From: Cokeromyces recurvatus
Lineage: Eukaryota; Mucoromycota; Mucoromycetes; Mucorales; Mucoraceae
Direction: 5' to 3'
NCBI RefSeq assembly: GCF_025118155.1
Contig: NW_026251420.1
Span: 216,517-280,516 of the forward strand
Length of the DNA stretch: 64,000 nt
Position 1 is the stretch's first letter. Every line of letters starts with the position of its first letter. Shown here one piece after another: positions 43,620-64,000 of the stretch. The notes below the pieces were generated by a model. The model was not told the DNA's origin. It worked only from the letters and a program-made list of their open reading frames with translations, and did not search any database. The position numbers and the translations under genes were made by a program.

Positions 43620-44848
43620 TGTTGTGTATTTCATGATGTATCACATAGTAGCTTATCATGTATAGATCAGTGTTGTGTATATAATGATGTATTACATAAT
43701 ATCTTATAATATACAGATCAGAGTCATGAAGGACTCGAATGATATTTATAGTTATTAGTAGTACACTTTATGCATACAATATTATTTGATTTCAGCTTAT
43801 ATAAGACATTCTTGCGATGAGAAAAATAATAATATTATAATAAATACTAACGTTACCAGATAATGATAGGCCAAACATTAGTGTAAAGAGTTATTAATGA
43901 TAAAGACATATATGAATTATAGACTGTACCTATTAGTTATATATACACATTATTATATTATTATCTAATATACTAATTTATAAATACAGTCATATACTAT
44001 CTATGATAATTTTATTCTAACTGAATACACTATATAACATATTGATATTCATTCAAGTAGTACATTAATGAATGAATACAATACAAAGAAATCTATATCA
44101 AAAGTATCTTTCCTATATCATTCACAAGTACGAACAAACCAGATCTCATTATTTGGTCTCAAGAAAAATGATCGAGCACAAATAATTTAATTTTTATTAG
44201 AGTGAGCTAACTGAGATTAATTCTCCATCAGGGCAACGACTAGAGAGCTCAAACACAATAGTTTTAATCATTCTATGGGAAAATATTCTTCTTTCAAGAT
44301 ATCTTGATTCTGTTCCTGTCGCGAAGTAACCCATTCTCCACAAGATATAAATAAGGATCTTGTGATATTTCTTTTAAAATATCAAATAAAAAATATCAGA
44401 AAATAAAAAAATAATATTAAGACAAAAAAGAGTCAACGAGACCGAACAATAGTTCTAAAGTCAATTATTTTATTTATGAATTTAAACTGATGGGGTATTT
44501 ATAAGAATTGTTAAAGAGGTCTGAGGATAGGATGTGAATCAGAAAAGTATTAGTTACGACCGAATTAGGTATATTGTTGACAACGAAGTGTTAGTGATTT
44601 TAATATTATTAGATGGAGCGGATCAAGAGAGAGTTAGGATAGAATTTCTTAAATGAATTTATGATCCGCATGTTTAATCATGAAACATGACATTATAAGT
44701 CAGCTCATGACAGATCTATCTTTGCACTCATCTTTTAGAATTTTTTCTAATTCAATTTTAATTTTTCAATTTATAATAAAAGTTTTATACAAAGTTTTTA
44801 TAGATTTATTTCTGTCTTGTTCTTTTTGTTATCTTTATCTTATCAACA
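43620..44848 (+). mobile_element. LTR copy A of a Ty3-like retroelement (with 51-bp tandem start)
   Basis: Homologous over most of its length to LTR copy B at 48362-49208, with the same TGTTGTGTAT start and ATCTTATCAACA end. A TATA-like TATAAATA near 44346 and AATAAAAG near the 3' end mark plus-strand orientation. The first 51 bases are present twice in tandem (43620-43670 and 43671-43721, both running TGTTGTGTAT...GATCAG). It is longer than copy B because of about 350 extra bases between the TATA-like box and TTTGCACTCATC (about 44362-44717). No matching 5-bp flanks were found, so it is not a simple solo LTR. Confidence 0.75.
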
Positions 44849-45132
44849 GATGGTAATCCATCTAGTTTTCCAAGGAAGCGTTTCTCCTCTTAAGCATCTT
44901 TTCTCCACGAACATCGTCTGCATTCCTCATAATACATTGTGTAGACTCTGCGTAAGTTTGTGGGTCATCATCAAGGATATCTCTACCAACTTGTGTCATA
45001 CGTTCAACGGCCCAACCAAATTCATCTCCGGTGTTTACCATGGACATCCTAATCACTGTCTCTACAGGTCGTGTAAGTGATGACAAGAATCTATCAGCAA
45101 TACGTTCATTATACTTAGACAGTCCAGTATAG
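44849..45132 (-). pseudogene. gag fragment of an LTR retroelement, minus strand
   Basis: Minus-strand reading gives SKYNERIADRFLSSLTRPVE then GWAVERMTQVGRDILDDDPQTY, clearly related to the gag piece at 55200-55720 (NERIADTFLASFLTSVQSI and TVEQMTQAGRDVLVDDASTY). It abuts LTR copy A but in the opposite orientation, so the locus has been rearranged. Its upstream side is cut by the Tc1-like element at 45135. No RT, protease or integrase is present. Confidence 0.7.
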
Positions 45133-45134
45133 TA

Positions 45135-46789
45135 CAGTGACTCACGAAACTGAGCGAATGTTCACAACTTTATTACATAATCATTTATATAGTAACTATT
45201 TCTTAATACGATGTATTTGTGAATATACTGGAATAAAAGGTGAGGTTTTTACGAGTTTATTAATATATTTGTCTTAAAGAATAATCAAGTATTTGCTATG
45301 TTACAAGGCTTTAAAGTCAATGATAGCATTCGCTCAGTTTTGTGAGCACGTTAAAAAAAATATTTCAAATACAGAAACTTGGCATCAATAGTCAGTCCAG
45401 TAACCTTTGGCTTTTATACATTGTTGAATACGATCAGGCATAGTTTCTATTACCTTTCGGCACTCTTCTACAGTAACTTTATTGTACCATATTTCGATAA
45501 TACGTTCATACAATTCGTTGATGCCTCTAGGCGGTGTATTATATTCATTTAGTCGAATTTTTAATAATCTCCACATGTTTTCTATGGGATTAAGATCTGG
45601 AGATTGTGCAGGCCAGCTCATTACTTGATATTCTTGAGATGCATGATATTCTTTAGCAACATCTGAGGTGTGCTTACTATCGTTGTCTTGCTGAAAAATT
45701 ACTTGATCTCTACGGAGATTTAATTTTCCGCACACATAATCAACTGTTTTATCGAGTTCATCCTCTAAAATCTCTTTATACAAGTGTTTGTCCATATTAC
45801 CTTCTATCTTGCATAACCATCCAGTTCCTGCATAAGAAATGGCGCTCCAAACCATGACACTACCACCACCATGCTTGACTGTGCCCTTGACATGCCTAGG
45901 TTGAGGTTGTTCACCGTCCCTGATCCAAGCCCAAACACGCCCGTCTGAGTTGTATCTGTTAACTTTGGTCTCATCGGACCAAATAAATCGTTTCCAGTCG
46001 GCTATAGTCCAATCTTTATGAGCCATGCACCATGCTGATCTCTTCTTTGCGTTAGCTTGACTAATAGTCGGCTTTTTAGGCTTTTCTATAGATCCTAAGC
46101 CACCTTCCCGAAATGTATGATGAATTGTCTGAGCACTAACCATGACACTGAGATCCTTATATAATTGCTTTTGAACCTTAACGGCATTGTCTATACGGCC
46201 TTTTGTAACCTGACGTATACAATATCTCTTATCAGCTTCAGACAACTTTTTAGGACGGCCACCTTTTCCAGCATTTCTGTCGGAGCAATGAATCCTTCCG
46301 TATTTGGCAACTGTACTGTAACTAACCTTAGTCTGTTGTGCAACACTTCGGATACTTTGACCGGATTGCAAGAGAGAAACTATACGGTTAAGTTGTTCAA
46401 CGGTAATTGAGCGCATTATGTAATAACAATTGCTAATATTATGTAATATAGGATATTTATTTACGCGGGAATACTATGTAAGCAGAGTGTGCCGTTAGGT
46501 AGGTTATTGGTATCTATTTAGGCTTTCTAAGTTTGAATACCAACTTGTGGTATTGCCCAAGAGTTAAATCAGACATGGTCACAAAACTGAGCGAATGCAT
46601 AGTCAGATTTTAAAATTGTTTTTCTCCCCGAAAGATGGAGCTACATCATCAACAAAGGTATCATTAAATTCCTTAGAAAACAAGCATTCTATTGATATAT
46701 TGTATGTTAGAGTTTCAAGAGTGTTTTGTCTTATAAATCAAACATTTTGTAAAATTAATCAAACATTCGCTCAGTTTCGTGAGTCGCTG
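45135..46789 (-). mobile_element. Tc1-like element 1, apparently complete (1655 bp)
   Basis: Bounded by TA on both sides (45133-45134 and 46790-46791). The outer ends are CAGTGACTCACGAAACTGAG at left and its near-perfect inverse at right (CAGCGACTC...). At the inner edge of each roughly 212-base end lies the same motif inverted (45326-45348: GCATTCGCTCAGTTTTGTGA; 46579-46598: TCACAAAACTGAGCGAATGC). The DNA between outer and inner motifs is not conserved between the two ends. It carries one transposase gene and sits inside the gag remnant. Confidence 0.92.
45385..46416 (-). CDS. Tc1/mariner transposase, intact, 343 aa
   Basis: Uninterrupted ORF. The N-terminal bipartite DNA-binding region is visible: a first helix-turn-helix (VEQLNRIVSLLQSGQSIRSV, AQQTKVSYSTVAKYGR), a GRPK hook (KGGRPKKLSEADKRYC), then a second HTH (VQKQLYKDLSVMVSAQTIHH). 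The DDE catalytic core has Asp in WSDETKVNRY, Asp in FQQDNDSKHTS and Glu in NPIENMW; the last two are separated by 34 residues (DD34E), the Tc1 spacing. HGGGSVMVWSAIS is the typical fold segment. The length of 343 aa and the clean frame suggest a functional or recently functional transposase. It acts in trans on the element's own ends. Confidence 0.95.
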   Translation of the reverse strand: MRSITVEQLNRIVSLLQSGQSIRSVAQQTKVSYSTVAKYGRIHCSDRNAGKGGRPKKLSEADKRYCIRQVTKGRIDNAVKVQKQLYKDLSVMVSAQTIHHTFREGGLGSIEKPKKPTISQANAKKRSAWCMAHKDWTIADWKRFIWSDETKVNRYNSDGRVWAWIRDGEQPQPRHVKGTVKHGGGSVMVWSAISYAGTGWLCKIEGNMDKHLYKEILEDELDKTVDYVCGKLNLRRDQVIFQQDNDSKHTSDVAKEYHASQEYQVMSWPAQSPDLNPIENMWRLLKIRLNEYNTPPRGINELYERIIEIWYNKVTVEECRKVIETMPDRIQQCIKAKGYWTDY

Positions 46790-46791
46790 TA

Positions 46792-47220
46792 TAAGAATTG
46801 ACGTAACTAGGCATCATTCCTATGAAATTAGCATAGTTGGTAAATATGACGAATTTCCGACAAAATGGAAAATCACTTTTTTCCACTAATTTCAGTATGG
46901 CGTAATGTATTACGAGGCTCAGCATAATTATTATATGATGCAATATTCCACACAATAAATACATTTTGTAAAATTTTTCTATCATCATTAGAAGAAAAGA
47001 AAATTCAATTTTAATTTTTATGCACCGGTTTCCGTAACTATTGTATAAATGTAAGTAATGTTTGAAGCTATTATACTACTCAATAATTCAATTGACATTG
47101 TCATACTTTGAGTAGTTCACCAGAAAACCAAAACTGAAAAGAAAATTCATGGAGAGAATAGGTAAATATGATGTAAAGGTTGTGTGTTTCAACTTGATCC
47201 ATAAAACATGATTATGTTTA
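46792..47220. other. Non-coding remnant DNA to the right of Tc1 element 1
   Basis: AT-rich flank, possibly eroded retroelement. Contains TTTTTATGCACCGGTTT near 47013-47031, the inverse of the end sequence seen at 63830-63840, and so perhaps a stray transposon end. No gene. Confidence 0.35.
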
Positions 47221-47760
47221 TTATTCTTTGAGTGATAGAAAATATGATTTATTGTTCACTTTTTGATTTAAATCTTCAAACTGGGGCAAGTTTTGTATTT
47301 TTTGGAGGGGAGGTGCTACATCTTCATTATTATCATCTTCTTTCATGCTTTTTTTATTTTTTTCTTTACCAATTAGGGTTTGTTTCACGACATTTGCTGT
47401 ATCTAACACATGTTCCTTAAAATCCGAAAAGTTGTCAGTAGTTGCTTTGCTGTTTTTTAACTCAGCGACAATTGAAGGTAGTGTAAAGGACTGAATAGAC
47501 TCGGCTACGTATAGATAATCATCAACTAATTTTACTAATAAAATATGTCCCTCAAGACCTAAAATAATGATCATGTTATATATTTAATTAAGTAATAAAA
47601 TGAAAGAGAGTAAAGTTAAATTTTACCCATGATCTGCGCATTTACTATTTTTAAAGATTCATTTTCTTTATTCTTATTCAAACCCATTGTCAGATTATAT
47701 ATAGTTTTTGCTTCAACTAATACTGGATTTTTCCTTCCTATATGCGGCTTTTAAAATCTT
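47221..47760 (-). pseudogene. Remnant of an unknown multi-exon gene
   Basis: Minus-strand coding-like sequence in two pieces that fit a GT-AG intron (donor GTAAAA near 47627, acceptor near 47560): NPVLVEAKTIYNLTMGLNKN, KIVNAQIMG, then LEGHILLVKLVDDYLYVAES and IQSFTLPSIVAELKN. It ends in a basic/acidic tail (KEKNKKSMKEDDNNED). No start and no upstream continuation in frame were found, so it is probably decayed. This type of sequence may belong to a repetitive gene family; I cannot name it. Confidence 0.4.
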
Positions 47761-48012
47761 GTTTGCATCTGTGACCAGATTGATTTTGGACTTATTTTTT
47801 TTATTTTGCACCCAGTTATTTTTTATTTGCAGTGGTTTTTTATTTTTGCTCTGATTAAAATACGGTTTTTGTACTCTTCCAGTACTAAAGAAATGCAAAC
47901 TCAAAAATATTACAAAATAAATCTCAAACGCAAATAATAAGTAGAAAAAAATAAAATATTTCAATAAATTATAATGCAAAATAAAATCAAACTTATATGT
48001 ATTAAAAAAATT

Positions 48013-50328
48013 ATAAATTTGTCTCTTTATTGAGACAACGCTCAAAGAAAGAGATTGAATGTCGGATCCATCCCTCGCGGTCAGCAAAAGTCACCTTCTT
48101 GGCAGAATCCAAAATCCATGGTGTAAGCTGGGCCTAAGCTGAGCCTTCTCACTAAGCTGCTCCGGACGCACGCCAAACTTTACCTTCGACCAAAATTCTT
48201 CTATTGGGTTCAAGAATGGCGAATAAGAAGGAAGGTATAAGCATTTATATCCTCTTCCTTCAATTAGACTTCGAACTAATTTAGACGTATGAATTGGGGC
48301 ATTATCCATTACGAGGTAACGACCTTGCATATTACACTCATCAAGAATATCCATGGTACTGTGTTGTGTATATAATGATGTATTACATAATATCTTATAA
48401 TGTACAAATCAGAGTCATGAAGAACCGGATGATATTATAGTTATTAGTTATACACTTTATGCATACAATATTATTTGATTTCAGTTTATAAGACATTCTT
48501 GTGATGAGAAAAAATAATGTTATAATAAATACTAACTCTACAAAATAATGATAAGAAAGACATAGTGTAAGGAGTTATTAATGATAAAGATATATGAATT
48601 ATAGATTATACCTATTAATTATATATATGCATTATTATTTAATGTTGTCTAAAATACTAACTTATAAATATAATCATATACTATCTATGAGAACTCTATT
48701 CTAATTGAATACACTATATAATATAATGAAATTCATTTAAGTAGTACATTGAGGAATGAATATAACATAAAGAAGCTGGTTAGAATATAAATCTATATAT
48801 CAAAAGTGTCTTTCCTATATCATTCACAAGTATGAACAAACGAAATTTTATTATTTTGTTTCAAGAAAAATAACCGGCTAAATCAAGCACCAATAATTTA
48901 ATGTTTATTAGAGTTAACTGAGATTAATTCTCAGTCAGGGCAAAGACTAGAGCTCTAACACAATAATTTTAATTATTCTATGGGAAATATTCTTCTTTCA
49001 AGATATCTTCACTCTGTTCCTGTCTCGAAGTAACCCGTTCTCCACAAGATATAAATAAGGATCCATTTTGCACTCATCTTTTAAAAACTGAGTTTTTTCA
49101 TTTTTTAATTTTTTAATTTTTAATTTTCATTTTGATAATAAAAGTTTTATTCAAAGTTTTCACAGATTTATTCTGTCTTATTCTTTTGTTATCTTTGTCT
49201 TATCAACATACTGCTAATAAACTCCAAGTAGTGCTCTGTTCGGGTTCCGATTCGACCATTGATGCTCTTCGATGATCCGTCTTTAGTTTTTCTTTTCTTC
49301 GAAACTACTTCCTCAGACTTCTTCAAAGTCAGGTTCACCACACCCTTTTCACAAATAGCCCCCATCATTGTTAAGGTGATGCCCCGTTGAGTTGGAACTT
49401 CGACCTTTGCTGGTTTTCCGCGAACAGAGCGGCCAAAATTTCTCTTGATGTGCATATTAAATCCCGCCTCATCAAGGAAAACGCAGTTAGATGAATAATC
49501 CAAGTCGTCTAAAGATTGCCATTCTAGTAGACGTTCGCAACGAAGTTCTATTGTATCTTGAGAGCATCTTTTCGCGGGCAGCTTTTCAAGCTTCTTCATA
49601 GTCAAACAACACTTCTTCATCAACTGCTTCTGAAGCCCAGACAAGGTGATAGTCAAGCCTTCAAATTCTTTGCATAAGGCTTCCCTAGCTTGTGCCAATG
49701 TAGCTGCCGGATTTTTCTCATAAAGTTGTACCAAGAACTTAGAGTGGTCATCAAAAAGTTTCTTGTTTCCTGTTTTCAGAGGTTTCTCTTCAATTACTTG
49801 TCCAGAGACATCAGAAGGGAGTTCGTATTCAGCCGCTCTTCGAAGTCTTTCCTGGCGGATATAGTTCTGACCAGTTCTAATGACGATACCAGTCTTCTCA
49901 GAAGCAGTTTTTGCTGTCATACCACATTCGAATACCAAATGGAATAAATCCAGGACTTGCTTTTCAGTATACTTACGATATGCTCCTCTTTTACTGCGAA
50001 CAGGAGTGACAGAAGTAGACGGAGCAGCAGAAGGTGTTTCAGCCAAAGGCACCTCTGATTCTTGAGATGCTTCGCTTTCAGAAATGATATTTCTGTATTC
50101 CATAAAAGTCAGAAGTTGCATCGTTGAATTGTTGTTAGGTTCAGCAGCTGGATGACTTGTCTCCCACTCCATTACCGTATTTATGGAAAGACTATCATCT
50201 ACGACACGAATATGTTGTTGCTCCTCAACAATATCATTTATCAACCCGTCCATAGGTGCGAAAGTAAGATTACCTGCTTCATTGTCAAAGTGGGAGAAAA
50301 GGGATTGAAAACCAGCGTTAGAAGACAT
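48013..50328 (-). pseudogene. DDE transposase gene broken by a solo LTR and a frameshift
   Basis: The gene starts at the ATG 50328 (MSSNAGFQSLF) and runs leftwards. It has a 120-residue acidic lead, an HTH region (KYTEKQVLDLFHLVFECGMT, TAKTASEKTGI), then the catalytic core with Asp in VFLDEAGFNMH. The frame is interrupted at 49213 by the LTR at 48362-49208 and resumes at 48356 with the second Asp (VMDNAPIHTSKL) and Glu (NPIEEFWSKVK), 34 residues apart. Near 48125 a one-base shift follows, after which another frame continues to about 48013 (DSAKKVTFADREGWIRHS). It belongs to the IS630-Tc1-mariner superfamily but differs from the neighbouring Tc1-like group. Terminal repeats were not found. Confidence 0.85.
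48362..49208 (+). mobile_element. Solo LTR, copy B (847 bp) with 5-bp target duplication
   Basis: Starts TGTTGTGTAT and ends ATCTTATCAACA, with TATAAATA near 49050. It is flanked by the direct repeat TACTG at 48357-48361 and 49209-49213, and lies inside a transposase reading frame that is continuous when the LTR and one TACTG are ignored. No internal retroelement sequence is present, so it is a solo LTR formed by recombination between two LTRs. Confidence 0.93.
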
Positions 50329-51075
50329 AATAAATTTTTGTTTTGTTTTTAAAAAAAATACGAAAAATAAGTGTTGAATAACTTCAAATATTTTCAAATA
50401 AAAAAGGATCAAGCTTTCGCAAGAATGAAATTCTAAGATACGCTGCGCAATTATTTTCAGGAACGCATGTTGTGCAAAAAAAAACTCAGATTAAAAAGAT
50501 CATAATAGGGATGACCGATGCTATTAACCTATAACTCAAGATCCAAGATCCTAAAATGTTAAATTTTAATATCTCAAGATCCCAAAATCTCAACTTTTCA
50601 ACGTTTGAAGATCCGAAGATCCCAAGATCCCAAGATCTCAAATTTGAAAACTTAGTCTAGTTTAAGGATCTAATACAAGCTTAGCATCCAATTTAAACAT
50701 GATACGATCAGTCTCATCTACAGTCAAAATTTTCTTGTTGTATGGGTTAAGAAGACAGAAATAAACCGTGAGGCATAGGCACAAGTAATAATAAATTATT
50801 ATTAGAAAAAAATTAAAATAAAAAAAAACTAAATATTCTTCTTGTAAAAACTATCTGGCTATTTATACTTTTCTTGGTAGCTCTAAATGATATATATAGA
50901 TGCTATTTCATTGGTGTTGTGTTAAATATTGACCTCTTTATGACATTATCGACAGTCATGATACAGATCATGATCTGGTAGTATATTTCACATATTGCTA
51001 ATTTAATCAGGGCTTCATTTGTAGGTTCTACATTTAATAAATACATAATTTATGTTTTATTATATCTTTATGTTA
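50329..51075. other. Spacer with degenerate AAGATCCC repeats
   Basis: From about 50530 to 50645 the unit CAAGATCC/CGAAGATCCCAAGATC recurs imperfectly. The remainder is AT-rich. The part next to 50329 may be the 5' end of the broken transposase element. No gene. Confidence 0.5.
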
Positions 51076-52731
51076 CAGTGACTCACAAAACCGGCCCAAT
51101 GTTTTGCACTTTTCCCTTTAATGATGTATTACTCGTAATTGGGACAAGCTACATACACAATTCTTATATCATTATAATCGTTGAAAAGCTCTCTCTATAT
51201 ATATAGTCTAAAATGGAAATAATATTTAAAACTCAGAAAGAAATTAAAGTTTAAAATCATGATGTACATTGGGCCGGTTTTGTGAGCATAAGCTAATTTT
51301 TATTTAATCGAATAATTTTATATTTAATAATCAGTCCAATGACCTTTAGCTTTAATAACTGCCTTGCAACGGTTTGGCATGGAGTCTATAACCTTTAAAC
51401 AATCCTCCTTGGTTATCTTGTGATACCATATATGGGTGATTCTTTCGAACAACTCTCTAATACCCTTAGGTGGAGTATCATACTCATTCAACTTACATTT
51501 CAAAAGAGCCCACATATTTTCGATTGGATTAAGATCTGGAGATTGTGAGGGCCAATCCATTAGCTCATACTGCTGGCTTTTAAAATGCTCGCGTGCAAGT
51601 AAAGACGTATGTTTAGAGTCATTATCCTGCTGAAAAACAAGTTGATTTCTTTTTAATCCTGTTTCTTTACACACCATTTCAATTGTATTTTCAAGTTCAT
51701 CCTTCAAAATTTCTGTGTAAAGCTGACCATCCATCGTAGAGTCAATTTTACACATCCATCCTACTCCAACACAAGTTATACAACTCCAAATCATAACGGA
51801 GCCACCTCCATGCTTGACATTCTGCTTGACATGCCTAGGTTGAAGGCGTTCATCATCCCTAATCCAAGCCCAGACACGACCGTATGAGTTGAAACGATTT
51901 ATCTTCGTCTCGTCAGACCATATAACTCTTCTCCAATCGTCGATCGTATAGTCTTTATACTTTTTAGCCCAGCGGAGTCTTTCTTTAATGTTTTTTTGAC
52001 TGAGTGCAGGCTTTGCCTCCTTCTCCATAGATCCGAGACCAGCCTATTTTAAAGCCCGGCGAACTGTTTCGGCGGACACAGACTTGTCTAACTCTGCTTT
52101 GAGTGCTTTTTGGACTTGTACGGCATTGTCTAGACCTCCTCTAGTGACCTTATGGACACAATAGTGCTTTTCAGTCTCCGTAAGTTTAATAGGTCTACCT
52201 CCTTTTAGCGTCCCACGTCCTGGAAAAACCTCCTTTCTGATACGAGACACAGTTGCTCTACCCACCTTCACTTCATCAGCAATTTGTCGGTCAGAAATTC
52301 CGGCATTAATCTTGGCAATAATTGTGTTTCTTGTCTTTGTAGATAATACGCGCATACTTACATAAAAATGCTTATGTAAGTAACAAATAAAAAATGAAAA
52401 ATTACAAAACTTACCTTGGTTATAGTTAATAGGGGTCACTGGACACAATTTTCGCTATTATAATATGCTGGGTACAATTAAATACCAAATTGTGGTACTA
52501 CTTTCTAAATCCTGTGGTGAGTCACAAAACCGGCCCAATGTACATCATGATTTTAAACTTTAATTTCTTTCTGAGTTTTAAATATTATTTCCATTTTAGA
52601 CTATATATATAGAGAGAGCTTTTCAACGATTATAATGATATAAGAATTGTGTATGTAGCTTGTCCCAATTACGAGTAATACATCATTAAAGGGAAAAGTG
52701 CAAAACATTGGGCCGGTTTTGTGAGTCACTG
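51076..52731 (-). mobile_element. Tc1-like element 2 (1656 bp) with perfect 210-bp inverted repeats
   Basis: Flanked by TA (51074-51075, 52732-52733). The left 210 bases (51076-51285) and right 210 bases (52522-52731) are exact inverse copies as far as I can read. Each repeat begins with CAGTGACTCACAAAACCGGC and ends at its inner edge with the inverse of the same motif (GCCGGTTTTGTGA). It carries a transposase gene with one stop codon. Confidence 0.95.
51324..52355 (-). pseudogene. Tc1/mariner transposase with a single in-frame stop
   Basis: 343-codon frame from the ATG at 52355 (MRVLSTKTRNTI) to 51324, the same length as the intact transposase at 45385-46416 and clearly related (HVKQNVKHGGGSVMIWSCIT; WAWIRDDERLQPRHVK). 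The only defect seen is TAG at codon 104 (52046-52044), just before AGLGSMEKEAKPA. The HTH region, KGGRPIK hook and catalytic Asp/Asp/Glu (WSDETKINRF, FQQDNDSKHTS, NPIENMW) are all present. It may be a recent inactivation, a stop read through at low level, or an assembly error. Confidence 0.92.
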
Positions 52732-52937
52732 TATGTACAAATACAACACAGCTAGAGTGCAGGCAGAAAATGACAAAAATCACGTGACTCTTTGAAAATT
52801 TTATTTTTCGCTAAAAGCCACAGATATGTAAAAGTCTGAGTTTGAATTGAACTTATCATAAATGTGTTTCAAACTCCGCAGTTCACAGACCTCGCATTAG
52901 CCTATACATGAAATCATTAAATTTATGAAAAAAAATA

Positions 52938-53725
52938 GAAAACTCAAAAAATGGTTTCAATGGAGTGATCATTTTTCAAAACCAGTAAGTTGATCATATA
53001 GCACGTGACTATGAAGAAATTTTTACCAAAAATAGAAATATATGTGTACTATTATTGTTTTCAATTTTTGGCCGTTTCAGTTTAATGATGTGAAGAAAAA
53101 AGAAAAAAACTGAATTTTTAGAGAACATTGAAACCATTTTTTGAGTTAGTGCACTAACATGACTCGTGTCCTTTCCGCTGAACTTCAATTGGATATCAAA
53201 GCTTGTCTAATTAAAGGGGAATCTTTAACAATTATTTCCTGTAAATTTGGTGTATCTAGAAGCGTTATTTCCAAGTATAAACAGAAGTGGTTTCCTGATA
53301 TTCTTTGTAACCATTCAGGAAGACCACCTATTATCACCCAGGAATCCAAGTCTTTGGTTAGGCGATTACTACTTAACGGTAGCCTTTTAACTGCTCATGA
53401 CGCTCATAAAATGTTTCTGTCACTGGGTTATGACTTTAGCTACAAAACAGCAATTAATGTTCTGAAATCAATGATTTTTTTTGCGTCAATAAAAAAGAAG
53501 AAGCCTATAATCAGCAATACCAACAAACAAAAGCGATACAAATGGGCCAAAAAATATCATCATTGGACTATTGATGACTGGAAACGTGTAGTATTTTCAG
53601 ACGAGAGTAAAATCAACATCTGAGGTCAGACGGCTGCAAATACTACCGGACAAGACCTGGCGACCCATTGAGACAACATCATATTGATGTTAGAGTCAAG
53701 CATGGTGATGGGCATTGTGATGGAA
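52938..53725 (+). mobile_element. Tc1-like element 4, left half only, cut by an LTR
   Basis: Left end with outer motif CTCAAAAAATGGTTTCAATG at 52943-52962 and its exact inverse at 53126-53145, the same plan and spacing as the other Tc1-like elements. The transposase frame 53159-53623 has an N-terminal HTH (LSAELQLDIKACLIKGESLT, IISCKFGVSRSVISKYKQKW), a GRPP hook and WTIDDWKRVVFSDESKINI with the first catalytic Asp, then a stop and frameshift. Similarity continues in another frame (VKHGDGHCDG) to 53725, where the LTR begins. The C-terminal half is missing. Confidence 0.8.
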
Positions 53726-54618
53726 TGTAATATTCAAAAGAAAAAGAAGAGAGAAAGGGAACAGAAGGAAGTATAGTTTGAGACTGTTTTATTCAATTAA
53801 AATAAAGAATAAGAATTGAAAGTTAAAAAAAAGTTAAAGATTATTTTATGTCTACACAACTGCTTGTATTTATATTAATGAATCGTTTGTCAAGGTTATA
53901 AGAATAAATATTTGGAAATGATACTGTTATGATTGTAGTCGTTATTATAACTAAGTTAATAGAAATGAACCATCATTTATTACATAATAAAGAGGTTATT
54001 CATATAAAACTAGTATATTGAACTTCACAGCGTAATATTCATTCTACACTCAGTTTTAATAATAGTCATTGTTAGAATGTTCGAGCAATAATAATAATTA
54101 TATACATAATTCAAACAGGATTATGACTGGTGTATTCAATTACATAATTGTTCTTGAGTAATACATATCAGATATACATTGATAATATTGAATATTGTTA
54201 AATAATGAAATCTTATACAATGATAATGATAGTAGCTCATAAATAATTGGTATTGTTGCAGCTAGACATATTCACTGAGAATTAATATTGATGTGTCGCA
54301 GTCCAATAATAATGATTCGTTAGGTTTCTAGGAACAGCGACAACTCAGGGAGAAAAAAGGAATAAAGATATATCTCATTGATCGCAGAATTATTCGGAGA
54401 CAATGTTTTATGAAAAACACTTTATTATAGTAAAACTTGCTTATCTGAATCATATTTCCATTGATAACACTTACCTTGTAAAAACATATAAATAACCCTC
54501 AATCTTTCCATATAATTTTCGTTGTACAATTTTTGTATTATCTTTAATAAACTATACGAAGTTTTCACAGACTTGTCTTCTGTCTATTCTTCTTCCATTA
54601 TCTTTGCTAATCAAAACA
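53726..54618 (+). mobile_element. 5' LTR (copy C) of a gag-bearing retroelement
   Basis: Starts TGTAATATTC and ends TAATCAAAACA directly before the gag leader. It contains ATATAAATAA at 54486-54495, and its last 70 bases (TTTTCACAGACTT, CTTCTGTCTATTC, CATTATCTTTG) align with the ends of LTR copies A and B, so the three form a family. It begins exactly where the Tc1 transposase homology stops, suggesting insertion there. The matching 3' LTR is not in the window. Confidence 0.72.
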
Positions 54619-54661
54619 TCTTTTTTCTGTGAACTACTCTAATATTTCAAACATTACTACA

Positions 54662-55722
54662 ATGAACTCTTCTGTTGCTTCTGTTACTTCTGGTGCTTCT
54701 GCTTCTGGTTCTGCCGTTACCTCCTTGTTGGATACCGATTTGAATTCTTTCTTGGAGAATGGCTCTTCTTTGTCCTCTGGTCCTACAACCACAATTACTT
54801 CTTCTGGTTCTGGTTCTGGTTCTTCTACAGGTGAAGAGAATAGTGCTACTGATATGTTAGTAGATGCTAATTCGGTTGTGGATGAATCCAACTTGGATGA
54901 TCTTTTGTTGCCTCTTGCCGCCAATAGTGCAGGTCAAGACGAGCTGTTGGTTGAGGAAAATCTCCTTAAAATGAGAAGAGAGATAACCCAACATTTACAA
55001 ACCTTTTCGCGCGCCCATGCCGAAGGCAATGAGGTTGCAGCACAATCTGCTATGAGATCCATAGAATTCCTCAAGCAAAATATTAAGTCATTGAGAAAAT
55101 ATCAAGAGATCCTAGGTATTACTAGTCCTCAAATCAGAGAGACTCGTCCTGCTTCTTCTTTCGCTGGGGGGTTTAGCACTCAGTAGAAAAGACTTACCAA
55201 AATTTCAGTTGGCTTCGAGCTTAGTCCGTCCCTTCCCTTCTGAAGAGGTTTTCGAGTCTGCCGAGCACTTCCTGAAAACTTTTGAGAAAGTTGTTGCGTC
55301 CTCCGGTCGTAATATCGAACTGGTTTGGAAAACTTTGTTTCCCCTCTGTCTTCCCGTTTCTGAGGATGCATGGTACGAGACCAACATGAAGTTGTCCCTA
55401 TCATGGAGTGAGGCTCGCAAGGTTTTCAAGTACAACCACAGCTCCAAAACCGCTGTACATCAATATACCGATCAAGTATTTACTATGGTCATGAAGTCTG
55501 GTGAGCCCTTGGCCGATTATTCCAAGAGGTTTCTTCAAGCAGTATACAATGCCGGTATCCCCAAGGATAACGAGCGTATTGCGGACACGTTTTTGGCTTC
55601 TTTTTTGACTTCTGTTCAATCAATAATTAAGTTAGCTATTTTCAATTGCAACAGTAATTCTTGGACGGTAGAGCAAATGACACAAGCAGGAAGAGATGTT
55701 TTAGTCGATGATGCTAGTACAT
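54662..55722 (+). pseudogene. gag-like gene of the retroelement, frameshifted and truncated
   Basis: From the ATG at 54662 (MNSSVASVTSGASAS) a Ser/Thr-rich lead is followed by a helical region (LLKMRREITQHLQTFSRAHA). The frame closes at 55186, just after a run of six G (about 55167-55172); coding sequence continues in another frame with KDLPKFQLASSLVRPFPSEE, FESAEHFLKTFEKVV, YTDQVFTMVMKSGEPLADYS and NERIADTFLASFLTSVQSI, a Ty3-type capsid pattern. It ends abruptly at DASTY where the Tc1-like element at 55724 is inserted. No pol region follows. The run of six G makes a one-base indel, a sequencing error, or a natural frameshift site all possible. Confidence 0.75.
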
Positions 55723-55723
55723 A

Positions 55724-57378
55724 CAGTAGGCGGAAAAATGGTCCGGATGTTTTGACAAAAATGACAAGAACACTTATAACTAAAGAACAAATAAAGCAAA
55801 TGACACAGAACAAAATGTATTTAAAAGAGAAAATTGTCTAGTTTTATTGATATACATTTCAAGAAATATGATTGATTAAAATATACTAAAATCGGAGGTT
55901 AAAGGTGTAGTGTACATCCGGACCATTTTTCAGGGTACATCAAAATTTCCTTAGTACTTAGTATAACCACCCTTAGCATCAATTACTGCCTTTATTCTTG
56001 CTGGCATAGAGTCAATATATTTTTGGCAATCCTCTTTTGTAAAAGTAGCCCATTGTTCTTCAATTCTTTCCCATAATTCATGGACTCCTTTAGCCTTGGT
56101 TGGATAAGCACTAAGCTTTAACTTCAGGTGATGCCAAATGTGTTCTATAGGGTTTAAATCTGGGCTTTGAGGTGGCCAACTATAAGTAGACTCAATATCG
56201 AACTTATTATCCGCTAACCATTGCTTTGTAAGCTTTGCGGTATGTTTAGGGTCCTTATCTTGCTGGAAATAAATATGCTGAGGGTCATAGCCATACCACT
56301 CAAGGGTATCTTTTAGAGTAGTATTCAAGATATGCACGTAATCTTCCTTTTTCATGGTACCATCCGTAATCTGACAGGCATAACCAGGACCATCATAGGT
56401 TATACAACCCCACATCATTACACTACCATTACCTCCTTTAACATTTAAGTCCAAATGATGAAAGGACAATTTGTCATCAGGACGCTTCCAATAGTATTTG
56501 ACACTGTCAGACTCCCCAAACGTTGATTTTTGTTTCATCAGAGAAAACCATACGCCTCCAGTCATCCTTAGTCCAATATTGGTGAGCTTTGGCCCACGCT
56601 AAACGCTTCTTTTTATGCTCAGGCTTCAAAAAAGACTTCTTCTTCTTTATAGCTGCTTCAAAATTCATGGACTTCATAATCTTGAGACATGATGAATAGC
56701 CTAAATCATAACCAGTAGACACCAAATAACGATGAACATCCTTGGCAGTTCTTAACTCACCTGTTACTAACTTCTTTCTAATATAAGAACGGCTAGTTGC
56801 ACCTACAACCATCTTCCTACCACTAGATGAAGCTTCTCGATCAGGGAAAAACCTTTTCTTATAGTTATAAATCGTATTTTTTTGACGCCCGGTATACGTT
56901 TCATAATTTCCGAGTATGGGCAACATGATTGCAATAAAAACTCGTTGTTATTTTGCTTATCTTGTGGAAGTGAGCGAACATTAATAATATAATAGCACAA
57001 TGGTAAGTGTAATATATGTGTAGTAACAAATATCAAATATAAAGAATCAGTCTCTTTTATATTATTAAATTAGGTTGCTGATTAATCATTATTCTTAATT
57101 ATAGTTGATAATCGACAAATTACAACTAATTGTTAGTACTCAATCAGTTAATTTATTTTTAATAAACCTAACAAAACGAACAGATGTACACGTTGATTAC
57201 AGGCTCTGATATAAAGCAAATTTAGCCCATTCAAATATGTTACTTTTATTTGGAATTACAGCACATTATTTTCTTTTTCGAATGCAGTTTTTCTTACATA
57301 CTTTGCTTTATTTGTTCTAAATCTATAAGTGTATTTATCATTTATCGCAAAAAATTCGTTCCGTTTTCCTGCCTACTG
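55724..57378 (-). mobile_element. Tc1-like element 3 (1655 bp), decayed, inserted in gag
   Basis: Flanked by TA (55722-55723, 57379-57380). Outer ends are CAGTAGGCGGAAAAATGGTC and, inverted at right, CAGTAGGCAGGAAAACGGAA. The left inner motif is the inverse of the outer one (55913-55935, ACATCCGGACCATTTTT). The right inner motif is only weakly visible (AACAAAACGAACAG near 57170). The size equals that of elements 1 and 2. Confidence 0.88.
55951..56926 (-). pseudogene. Tc1/mariner transposase remnant with frameshifts
   Basis: The catalytic half is clear: WSDE-equivalent VFSDETKINV, then after a frame change near 56520 FGESDSVKYYWKRPDDKLSF, GSVMMWGCITYDGPGY, the second Asp in YFQQDKDPKHTAKL and Glu in NPIEHIWHHLK. 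The N-terminal HTH is split over frames (GRQKNTIYNYKKRFFPDREA; upstream part in another frame to about 57030). At least two frameshifts, so inactive. It is only distantly related to the transposases of elements 1 and 2. Confidence 0.88.
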
Positions 57379-57380
57379 TA

Positions 57381-63520: not shown

Positions 63521-63811
63521 TGAAATAGAATAGAACAGAACCAACAAACCAACGTTTCCTTCTTCTAAAATAATATGTTCGGTAAATAAGAATTTATAAT
63601 TGTTTTAGTTTTTTTTTAAACTTACGCGTTATCTAAACATGAAAACATAATGTACTGATTCCCTCTACTGGTTTCTTTTTTTAATCGCCTGTACATACAA
63701 GATGAATATACAGTTGAAGAAGCCAAAAGGCGGGATGCAAGAGTTATAGAAGTGCTGGGTATATTAATGGGGAGTCTTTGATTATTTAAGCGAGTATAGA
63801 ATCTCTTTATA

Positions 63812-64000
63812 CACTAGGTGAAAAAACTGGTGCATAAAAATAATTTTTTTAATTTTTTGACTATATCTCTATGAGAATGCATAGTACATATATGAAAATA
63901 GGCTAAATATTAGCTATAAAGAGCTCATATATGTTTGTGAAATTTAAACAAGATTGGTCAATTTTAATTGGACAAAATATACATTAGAAGCTTTATTACG
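63812..64000 (+). mobile_element. Probable left end of another TA-inserted transposon
   Basis: TA (63810-63811) followed by CACTAGGTGAAAAAACTGGT and TGCATAAAAAT. An inverse near-copy (TTTTTATGCACCGGTTT) lies at 47013-47031. The form, TA then CA-start with 20-30 conserved bases, is that of Tc1/mariner ends. The rest would be outside the window. Confidence 0.4.

Follow-up and report, generated by a model that had tools for sequence, protein, structure and literature searches.

Inverted inner copies of the tip motif at a near-constant distance in the ends of Tc1-like transposons of Cokeromyces recurvatus

Why should a Tc1-like transposon repeat the motif of its own tip, in inverse orientation, some distance inside its ends? 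This question is raised by the terminal 64 kb of contig C28 of the fungus Cokeromyces recurvatus (NW_026251420.1, positions 216,517 to 280,516; hereafter the window), in which elements of families A, B and D (elements 1, 2 and 4) show such a layout. Contig C28 comprises 280,516 bp and belongs to a 28.05-Mb assembly (GCF_025118155.1), the one genome examined, whose other contigs are likewise denoted by C-numbers (C4, C7, C40 and so on). In element 1, the left tip reads TACAGTGA-CTCACGAAACTGAGCGAATG, its inverted copy CTCACAAAACTGAGCGAATG is found on the inner side of the same end, and the right end is the mirror image of the left. Element 2 has CCGGCCC-type pairs at both ends, and element 4 has a ATGGTCCG-type pair at its left end. 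An earlier reading of the same DNA (the original prediction) had assigned paired inverted motifs to the ends of all these elements. This assignment holds for both ends of elements 1 and 2 and for the left end of element 4 and fails at the right end of the latter, where the inner motif reaches at most 11/22 at any position, the level of families without the motif; another family D copy, on C38, has inner copies in both arms, one of which is shortened. The lengths of 1655-1656 bp given earlier have to be corrected to 1659, 1660 and 1659 bp, as measured from TA to TA.

The position of the inner copy varies little. Its spacing, expressed as the length V, which starts at the TA of the tip and ends at the first position of the mirrored inner copy, is 222, 221 and 221 in elements 1, 2 and 4 (left end), and the values for aligned elements of the nine families that contain an inner motif are 222 (A), 221 (B), 218 (C), 221 (D), 222/224 (E), 221 (F), 221 (G), 222/224 (H) and 220 (I). 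The sequence of the inner site, by contrast, follows the family: in a comparison of one left arm per family, it matched the core of its own family's tip at 15.3/16 positions and those of the other families at only 10.6/16. The claim that the motif differs from element to element while the spacing stays the same is largely borne out, with V ranging from 218 to 224 apart from a few outliers.

The pairing is widespread in the genome. A de novo scan of 40 merged segments (222 kb), gathered by sequence searches and small additional retrievals, detected 67 inverted pairs of repeats with scores of at least 14, 63 of them with gaps of 150-179 bp, as well as 39 direct pairs; a single minisatellite accounted for 30 of the 34 direct pairs that were listed. 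When 39 of the 40 segments were scanned again for clustered pairs of exact 13-mers separated by 60-400 bp, leaving out the segment of C40 that contains the minisatellite, 64 inverted cases emerged (57 in the 160-199 gap bins) along with 11 direct ones, whereas 20 shuffles of two-base blocks produced a mean of 1.35 inverted cases and a maximum of 3. The shuffles and the direct-orientation control together rule out a chance or low-complexity origin. A count that started from the tips of eleven families considered ends with 300 readable bases and called an inner motif at a match of at least 14/18 and V between 215 and 227. For families A to I, it identified the motif in 74 of the 86 ends that qualified (A 7/8, B 13/15, C 7/8, D 5/9, E 13/14, F 13/14, G 4/4, H 7/9, I 5/5). 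The 86 ends include three right inner sites of family B that were re-read as tips and the four tips of two solo arms described below, without which the result is 67/79; the right end of element 4 is too diverged from the family tip to have entered the count. Among the 12 misses, two have the motif outside the accepted range of V (212 in C, 198 in D), two reach 13/18 (D and H), one is an arm interrupted by another element, and seven are truncated or relic ends. A direct orientation at 14/18 or better was seen in three of the 86 ends, each time coinciding with the tip of a neighbouring element.

All of these elements belong to the Tc1 group, combining a transposase with helix-turn-helix and DDE_3 domains with TA ends and TACAGT-type tips. 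Each of the 29 paired elements listed has TA at both ends and a length of 1606-1717 bp. Both PF13358 and PF01498 were recovered in six of six proteins scanned (A, G, I, J, L and C), although J lies below the PF01498 cut-off. The transposases of the other families with the layout share 37-68% identity with that of family A, and the paired-motif layout spans DD34E, DD35E and DD37E enzymes, the distance between D and E being 34 in A, B, E, H and L (counted) and in F and C (by alignment), 35 in I and J, and 37 in D and G. In a search of solved structures at E<=0.01, the sole match to the family A transposase was SB100X (PDB 5cr4; E 1.7e-44), and the named species among the 120 relatives listed were Mucor velutinosus and Rhizopus arrhizus. 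A protein search of viral_contigs returned no outside relatives, and an alignment-based search of the same collection gave 21 distant matches; at least 80 distant bacterial or archaeal loci, of at least 95, were kept from genome_contigs. The sole match to a tip sequence in viral_contigs falls inside an open frame that lies beside a gene judged by eye to be terminase-like.

Is the inner motif merely the edge of a long terminal inverted repeat (TIR)? This explanation is ruled out for families A, E, H, I and C, whose arms share little or no spacer sequence: the left and right spacers match at 0.53-0.59, compared with 0.50-0.54 after shuffling (up to about two standard deviations above), although the left and right inner sites agree at 16/20 to 19/20 positions. 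In families B, F, G and D, each pair of arms forms a long TIR that ends at the inner motif (identity of 84-100% among the copies compared), and for these the edge of a long TIR may suffice as an explanation. Between families, the spacer sequence is mostly not kept; those of D and G are 85% alike, with the outer and inner motifs differing in the same way. The expectation that the inner motif should be more conserved than the spacer within a family held for A, C, E, F and H, whereas the two are about equal in B and G and the motif is the more divergent in D and I. This comparison is weak, given that in A, E, F and I even the outer tip diverges at least as much as the spacer, and the pairs compared were few (three for I, six for G, eight for H and nine for A).

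The inner site reproduces only part of the tip. Averaged over families (including the arm of family D from the window and one chance arm of family J), the inner copy matches the tip at 0.78-1.00 in positions 12-28, at 0.52-0.66 in positions 9-11 and at only 0.09-0.48 in positions 1-8, so that the inner site mostly does without the TACAGTGA cleavage end. An exception is the right inner edge of three family B copies, which reads TGTGGTGAG, TATAGTGAG or TGTAGTGAC, compared with TACAGTGAC at the tip, in flanks that are identical at 58-60 of 60 positions. The first nine bases of this site (C35:5191, C35:125324 and window 52513-52521) vary at the positions at which a tip would be cleaved. This variable head may be a decayed, formerly complete end, or it may consist of scars left by cutting and repair.

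Two arms exist on their own, each in flanks of its own (C7:257086-257306 and C40:105488-105708). Both are 221 bp long, are bounded on either side by TA and a tip, the two tips being inverted relative to each other (in the C40 copy, one of them bears a substitution), and match a family B arm over positions 1-213 at 93% and 94%, respectively. Short, non-coding, bounded by imperfect 29-nt inverted tips with TA at both ends and related to B, they have the form of a miniature inverted-repeat transposable element (MITE), which shows that single arms can occur as miniature elements. They may have moved by transposition; the two copies are the only ones found, and no empty site was seen. They fit either loss of the DNA from an inner site to the far tip, two sites in direct orientation, or derivation from an arm with a complete tip at its inner site. 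Genome-wide searches were made with a single arm from each of families B, F, D, C (right arm) and I (left arm) and with the whole of A, leaving E, H and G aside; the seven stretches newly retrieved in this way (such places as C64:888637, C62:404, C28:144973, C19:328554 and C22:136732 lying outside the set) contained no further two-tip solo arm. A genome-wide search for paired complete tips returned 11 places, compared with 19 for a reversed control pattern. One was the known unit on C7, and the other ten were judged by eye, from 80 letters each, to be chance matches; the pattern misses the C40 unit, its tip being mutated. A suspected solo arm of family D (C4:289216) proved to be an arm with foreign sequence beside its inner edge.

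The reading that we favour, with a probability of roughly 0.6, is that the inner motif serves as a second, non-cleavable transposase site in each arm and is used in the assembly of a four-site complex. Each end would then be an arm of about 221 bp with two putative transposase-binding sites facing each other, an outer one that ends in the cleavable tip TACAGT and an inner one that repeats tip positions ~9-28 in reverse and mostly lacks the first ~8 bases required for cutting. We infer, as the best account of the layout, that each element offers four transposase sites. Transposase would load on all of them, and the inner sites would hold and check the paired-end complex before cuts are made at the outer tips, much as in Sleeping Beauty, with the inner site flipped. 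The sequence comparisons also support a constraint across families that appears to act on the inner motif. Since the outer and inner sites of an arm relate to each other like the two ends of a mini-transposon, an inner site that regains a complete tip, or a deletion between the inner site and the far tip, could give rise to a 221-bp MITE. More tentatively, and with clearly less confidence than in the general scheme, it is tempting to speculate that the arm is a self-contained paired-end unit. Transposase would first bring together the outer site and the inner site within one arm, treating that arm like a mini-transposon of 221 bp, and the resulting arm complex, uncuttable at its tipless inner site, would then join the other arm.

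Several observations weigh against a conserved second site. Outlying spacings occur (V=198 in one arm of the D copy on C38, V=212 in a C copy on C52 and V=225 in an A copy on C35), and a diverged F copy, L177 (C23:1803-3486), has V=233 in both arms with an inner motif of 13/18. In B, F, G and D, the identity of the inner motifs proves little by itself because the arms are 84-100% identical, and within-family divergence is not consistently lower in the inner motif. Moreover, one arm (C4:291022-291241) pairs an outer motif of family G with an inner motif of family D; with an outer stretch identical to G at 60/60 positions and an inner part like family D, it is, judging by its sequence, a natural recombinant. 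Finally, the constraint had been proposed to be lineage-wide. Nine families (A to I) show the layout, but their sister families J and L, represented by several copies each, have an inner motif in 0/19 ends, a result that does not support so wide a scope. Other subterminal motifs were not found in J and L either, the best left-right alignments of six elements scoring below the 95% level of shuffled sequences. In a tree of the 11 transposases (B and D entering as C-terminal pieces), J stands beside (I,(G,D)), with 87/86 at the fork, and L stands beside C (100/99), which makes the absence of the inner site two changes. Given an ancestor that already had the layout, the tree is most simply read as showing two losses.

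The existence of solo 221-bp arms, the long terminal repeat of B, F, G and D that stops at the inner motif and the three B copies in which the right inner edge bears an almost complete tip are also what one would expect if the arm descended from a MITE-like unit with inverted ends, two of which came to flank a gene, with their inner ends now decaying and functionless. Such a leftover should lose its motif together with its spacer, yet the spacers of A, E, H, I and C are nearly or fully randomised between the arms, whereas the inner motif persists and agrees with the changed tip of its own family, and V stays near 221 in nine families. We therefore consider this origin rather unlikely as an explanation of the present motif.

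The position of the inner site on the 5' side of the gene, between the outer tip and the start codon (in family A, 46578-46597, with the ORF starting at 46416), could point to an operator through which transposase represses its own promoter, the copy at the other end being maintained by exchange between the arms. In line with this idea, the transposase of Bari3 is reported, in the available part of the source, to lower the promoter activity of its own end (PMC4120734). Nevertheless, the 3' arm retains its site, with nearly unchanged spacing, even in elements whose arms have little or no spacer sequence in common, which exchange between arms does not explain, and an operator has no need for a fixed distance to the cut end, making this role improbable. 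A still fainter prospect is that the arm folds back on itself via the inverted motif and that the folded form acts as a signal. The original prediction had taken each end to be able to form a hairpin, and isolated strands of two arms indeed fold better than shuffled sequences (z -5.24 and -4.09). Any inverted repeat of this kind, however, is expected to form a stem of ~21 bp with a loop of ~160 nt, so that the folding does not support a function. Cruciform extrusion from duplex DNA is unfavourable at a loop size of ~160 nt, and the identity of the motif follows the family, as is the case for protein sites.

The closest counterpart of the favoured four-site arrangement is Sleeping Beauty. In the accessible passages of PMC7827188, it is described as having two direct repeats in each of its ends, which are ~220 bp long; all four repeats are needed, cutting is confined to the outer ones, and the inner site is 2 bp shorter than the outer. 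The Cokeromyces elements resemble it and other elements with inverted repeat/direct repeat (IR/DR) ends in that an outer and an inner site, here putative transposase sites, occur within terminal stretches of ~220 bp. They depart from the direct inner-repeat orientation of IR/DR elements in that the inner repeat is inverted in all nine families that have one. Bari elements of Drosophila, as far as the accessible sources describe them, are comparable in having short- and long-TIR variants, both of which keep conserved transposase sites in the outermost ~250 bp on either side, and derived MITEs, but they contain three direct repeats per end instead of an inverted pair. According to passages of PMC5630946, DrTRT has, inside its short TIRs, a second inverted motif whose subterminal 5' and 3' copies pair with each other, unlike the outer-inner pairing within an arm seen here. 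For Mucorales, the same passages list Tc1 elements in ten species rows: TIRs of 211, 211, 216 and 218 bp in R. delemar, R. oryzae, M. ramosissimus and Cokeromyces and of 33 and 38 bp in M. velutinosus and M. racemosus, with element lengths of 1646-1672 bp in these six, and TIRs of 126 and 59 bp in two of the remaining four rows and none in the other two. The first six resemble the long-arm and short-tip classes found here, in the same host group, and the other four do not fit; to judge from these TIR lengths, the same arm length may occur in other genera of Mucorales. The inner motif is absent from these passages, in whose text 'direct repeat' does not occur. Tc1-MP1, a Tc1 transposon of Rhizopodaceae and Mucoraceae, is likewise a DD34E element and differs by its 141-bp TIR and 434-aa ORF; neither 'direct repeat' nor 'binding site' occurs in the available text of PMC9977792. 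A literature search that was thin on subscription papers turned up no account of a Tc1-like element whose inner transposase site is inverted. Tc3 has an internal site as well, which may be of either orientation. The elements are of a known kind, Tc1-like, and their flipped layout is apparently undescribed in the literature searched.

At the locus itself (Table 1), the 'left half' of a further element, proposed at 52938-53725, contains a real inverted pair but is a chimera of a family C arm and a family I gene fragment. Positions 52894-53151 are identical at 244/259 positions to the last ~259 bp of a family C element (C9 copy), and positions 53152-53715 at 529/565 to positions ~400-965 of a family I element (C52 copy). 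In three cases (C51:72932-73561, C52:56642-57216 and window 52894-53715), a family C end is no more than ~200 bp away from an element or fragment of family I. The transposase ORF of element 2 is broken (51324-52028, then within 52044-52448, with one in-frame TAG), and that of element 4 is split into two overlapping frames (55951-56565 and 56507-56926). Element 4 is inserted, from 55722 on, in a frame (54629-55841) of a long terminal repeat-type retrotransposon that looks gag-like by eye. A stretch of 51 bases (55661-55711) is 71% similar, in reverse, to positions 44965-45015, just beyond element 1. Two further transposase-like frames (48091-48354 and 49189-50412), with DDE-type motifs recognised by eye, fall outside the present families, and repeats connect positions 44721-44848 with 49067-49208. 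A family J end (tip at C28:280326; window 63810-64000) runs into the end of the contig, and other elements lie at or near the starts of C35, C40, C15, C17 and C60.

Table 1. Tc1-like elements and their putative sites in the window (positions counted from its first base).
Feature	Position	Strand	Remarks
Element 1, family A Tc1-like	45133..46791	-	1659 bp TA to TA
Family A transposase ORF	45385-46416		intact, 343 aa, DD34E; inside element 1
A left outer site	45133..45160	+	cleavage tip and motif
A left inner site	45327..45346	-	inverted, tip positions 9-28, V=222
A right inner site	46578..46597	+	inverted vs right tip, V=222
A right outer site	46764..46791	-	
Element 2, family B Tc1-like	51074..52733	-	1660 bp; 212-nt arms identical
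B left outer site	51074..51101	+	
B left inner site	51267..51286	-	inverted, V=221
B right inner site	52513..52540	+	motif 52521-52540; head resembles outer tip (TGTGGTGAG vs TACAGTGAC)
B right outer site	52706..52733	-	
Truncated family C end	52894..53153	-	right-facing outer tip (53153); inner site at 52943-52962 with V=219
Family I internal fragment	53152..53715	+	holds 5' part of transposase, ORF 53159-53623
Element 4, family D Tc1-like	55722..57380	-	1659 bp; DD37E
D left outer site	55722..55749	+	
D left inner site	55915..55934	-	inverted, V=221
D right end	57268..57380	-	74% similar to left end over ~114 bp; tip motif diverged

As far as the accessible literature goes, four-site models of Tc1-type transposition, such as those for Sleeping Beauty and Bari, derive from elements with direct inner repeats. 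Diverged transposases (37-68% identical to that of family A) that share a reversed inner site at the same distance provide a natural test of how spacing and orientation matter in the synaptic complex, with the sister families J and L, which have no inner sites, as built-in controls. The layout also suggests how, in concrete terms, one end of a transposon could turn into a MITE. If the arm is indeed a self-contained unit, the inverted order would represent a solution to the four-site assembly checkpoint other than that of Sleeping Beauty, and the arms themselves would give rise to MITEs each time an inner site recovered its tip.

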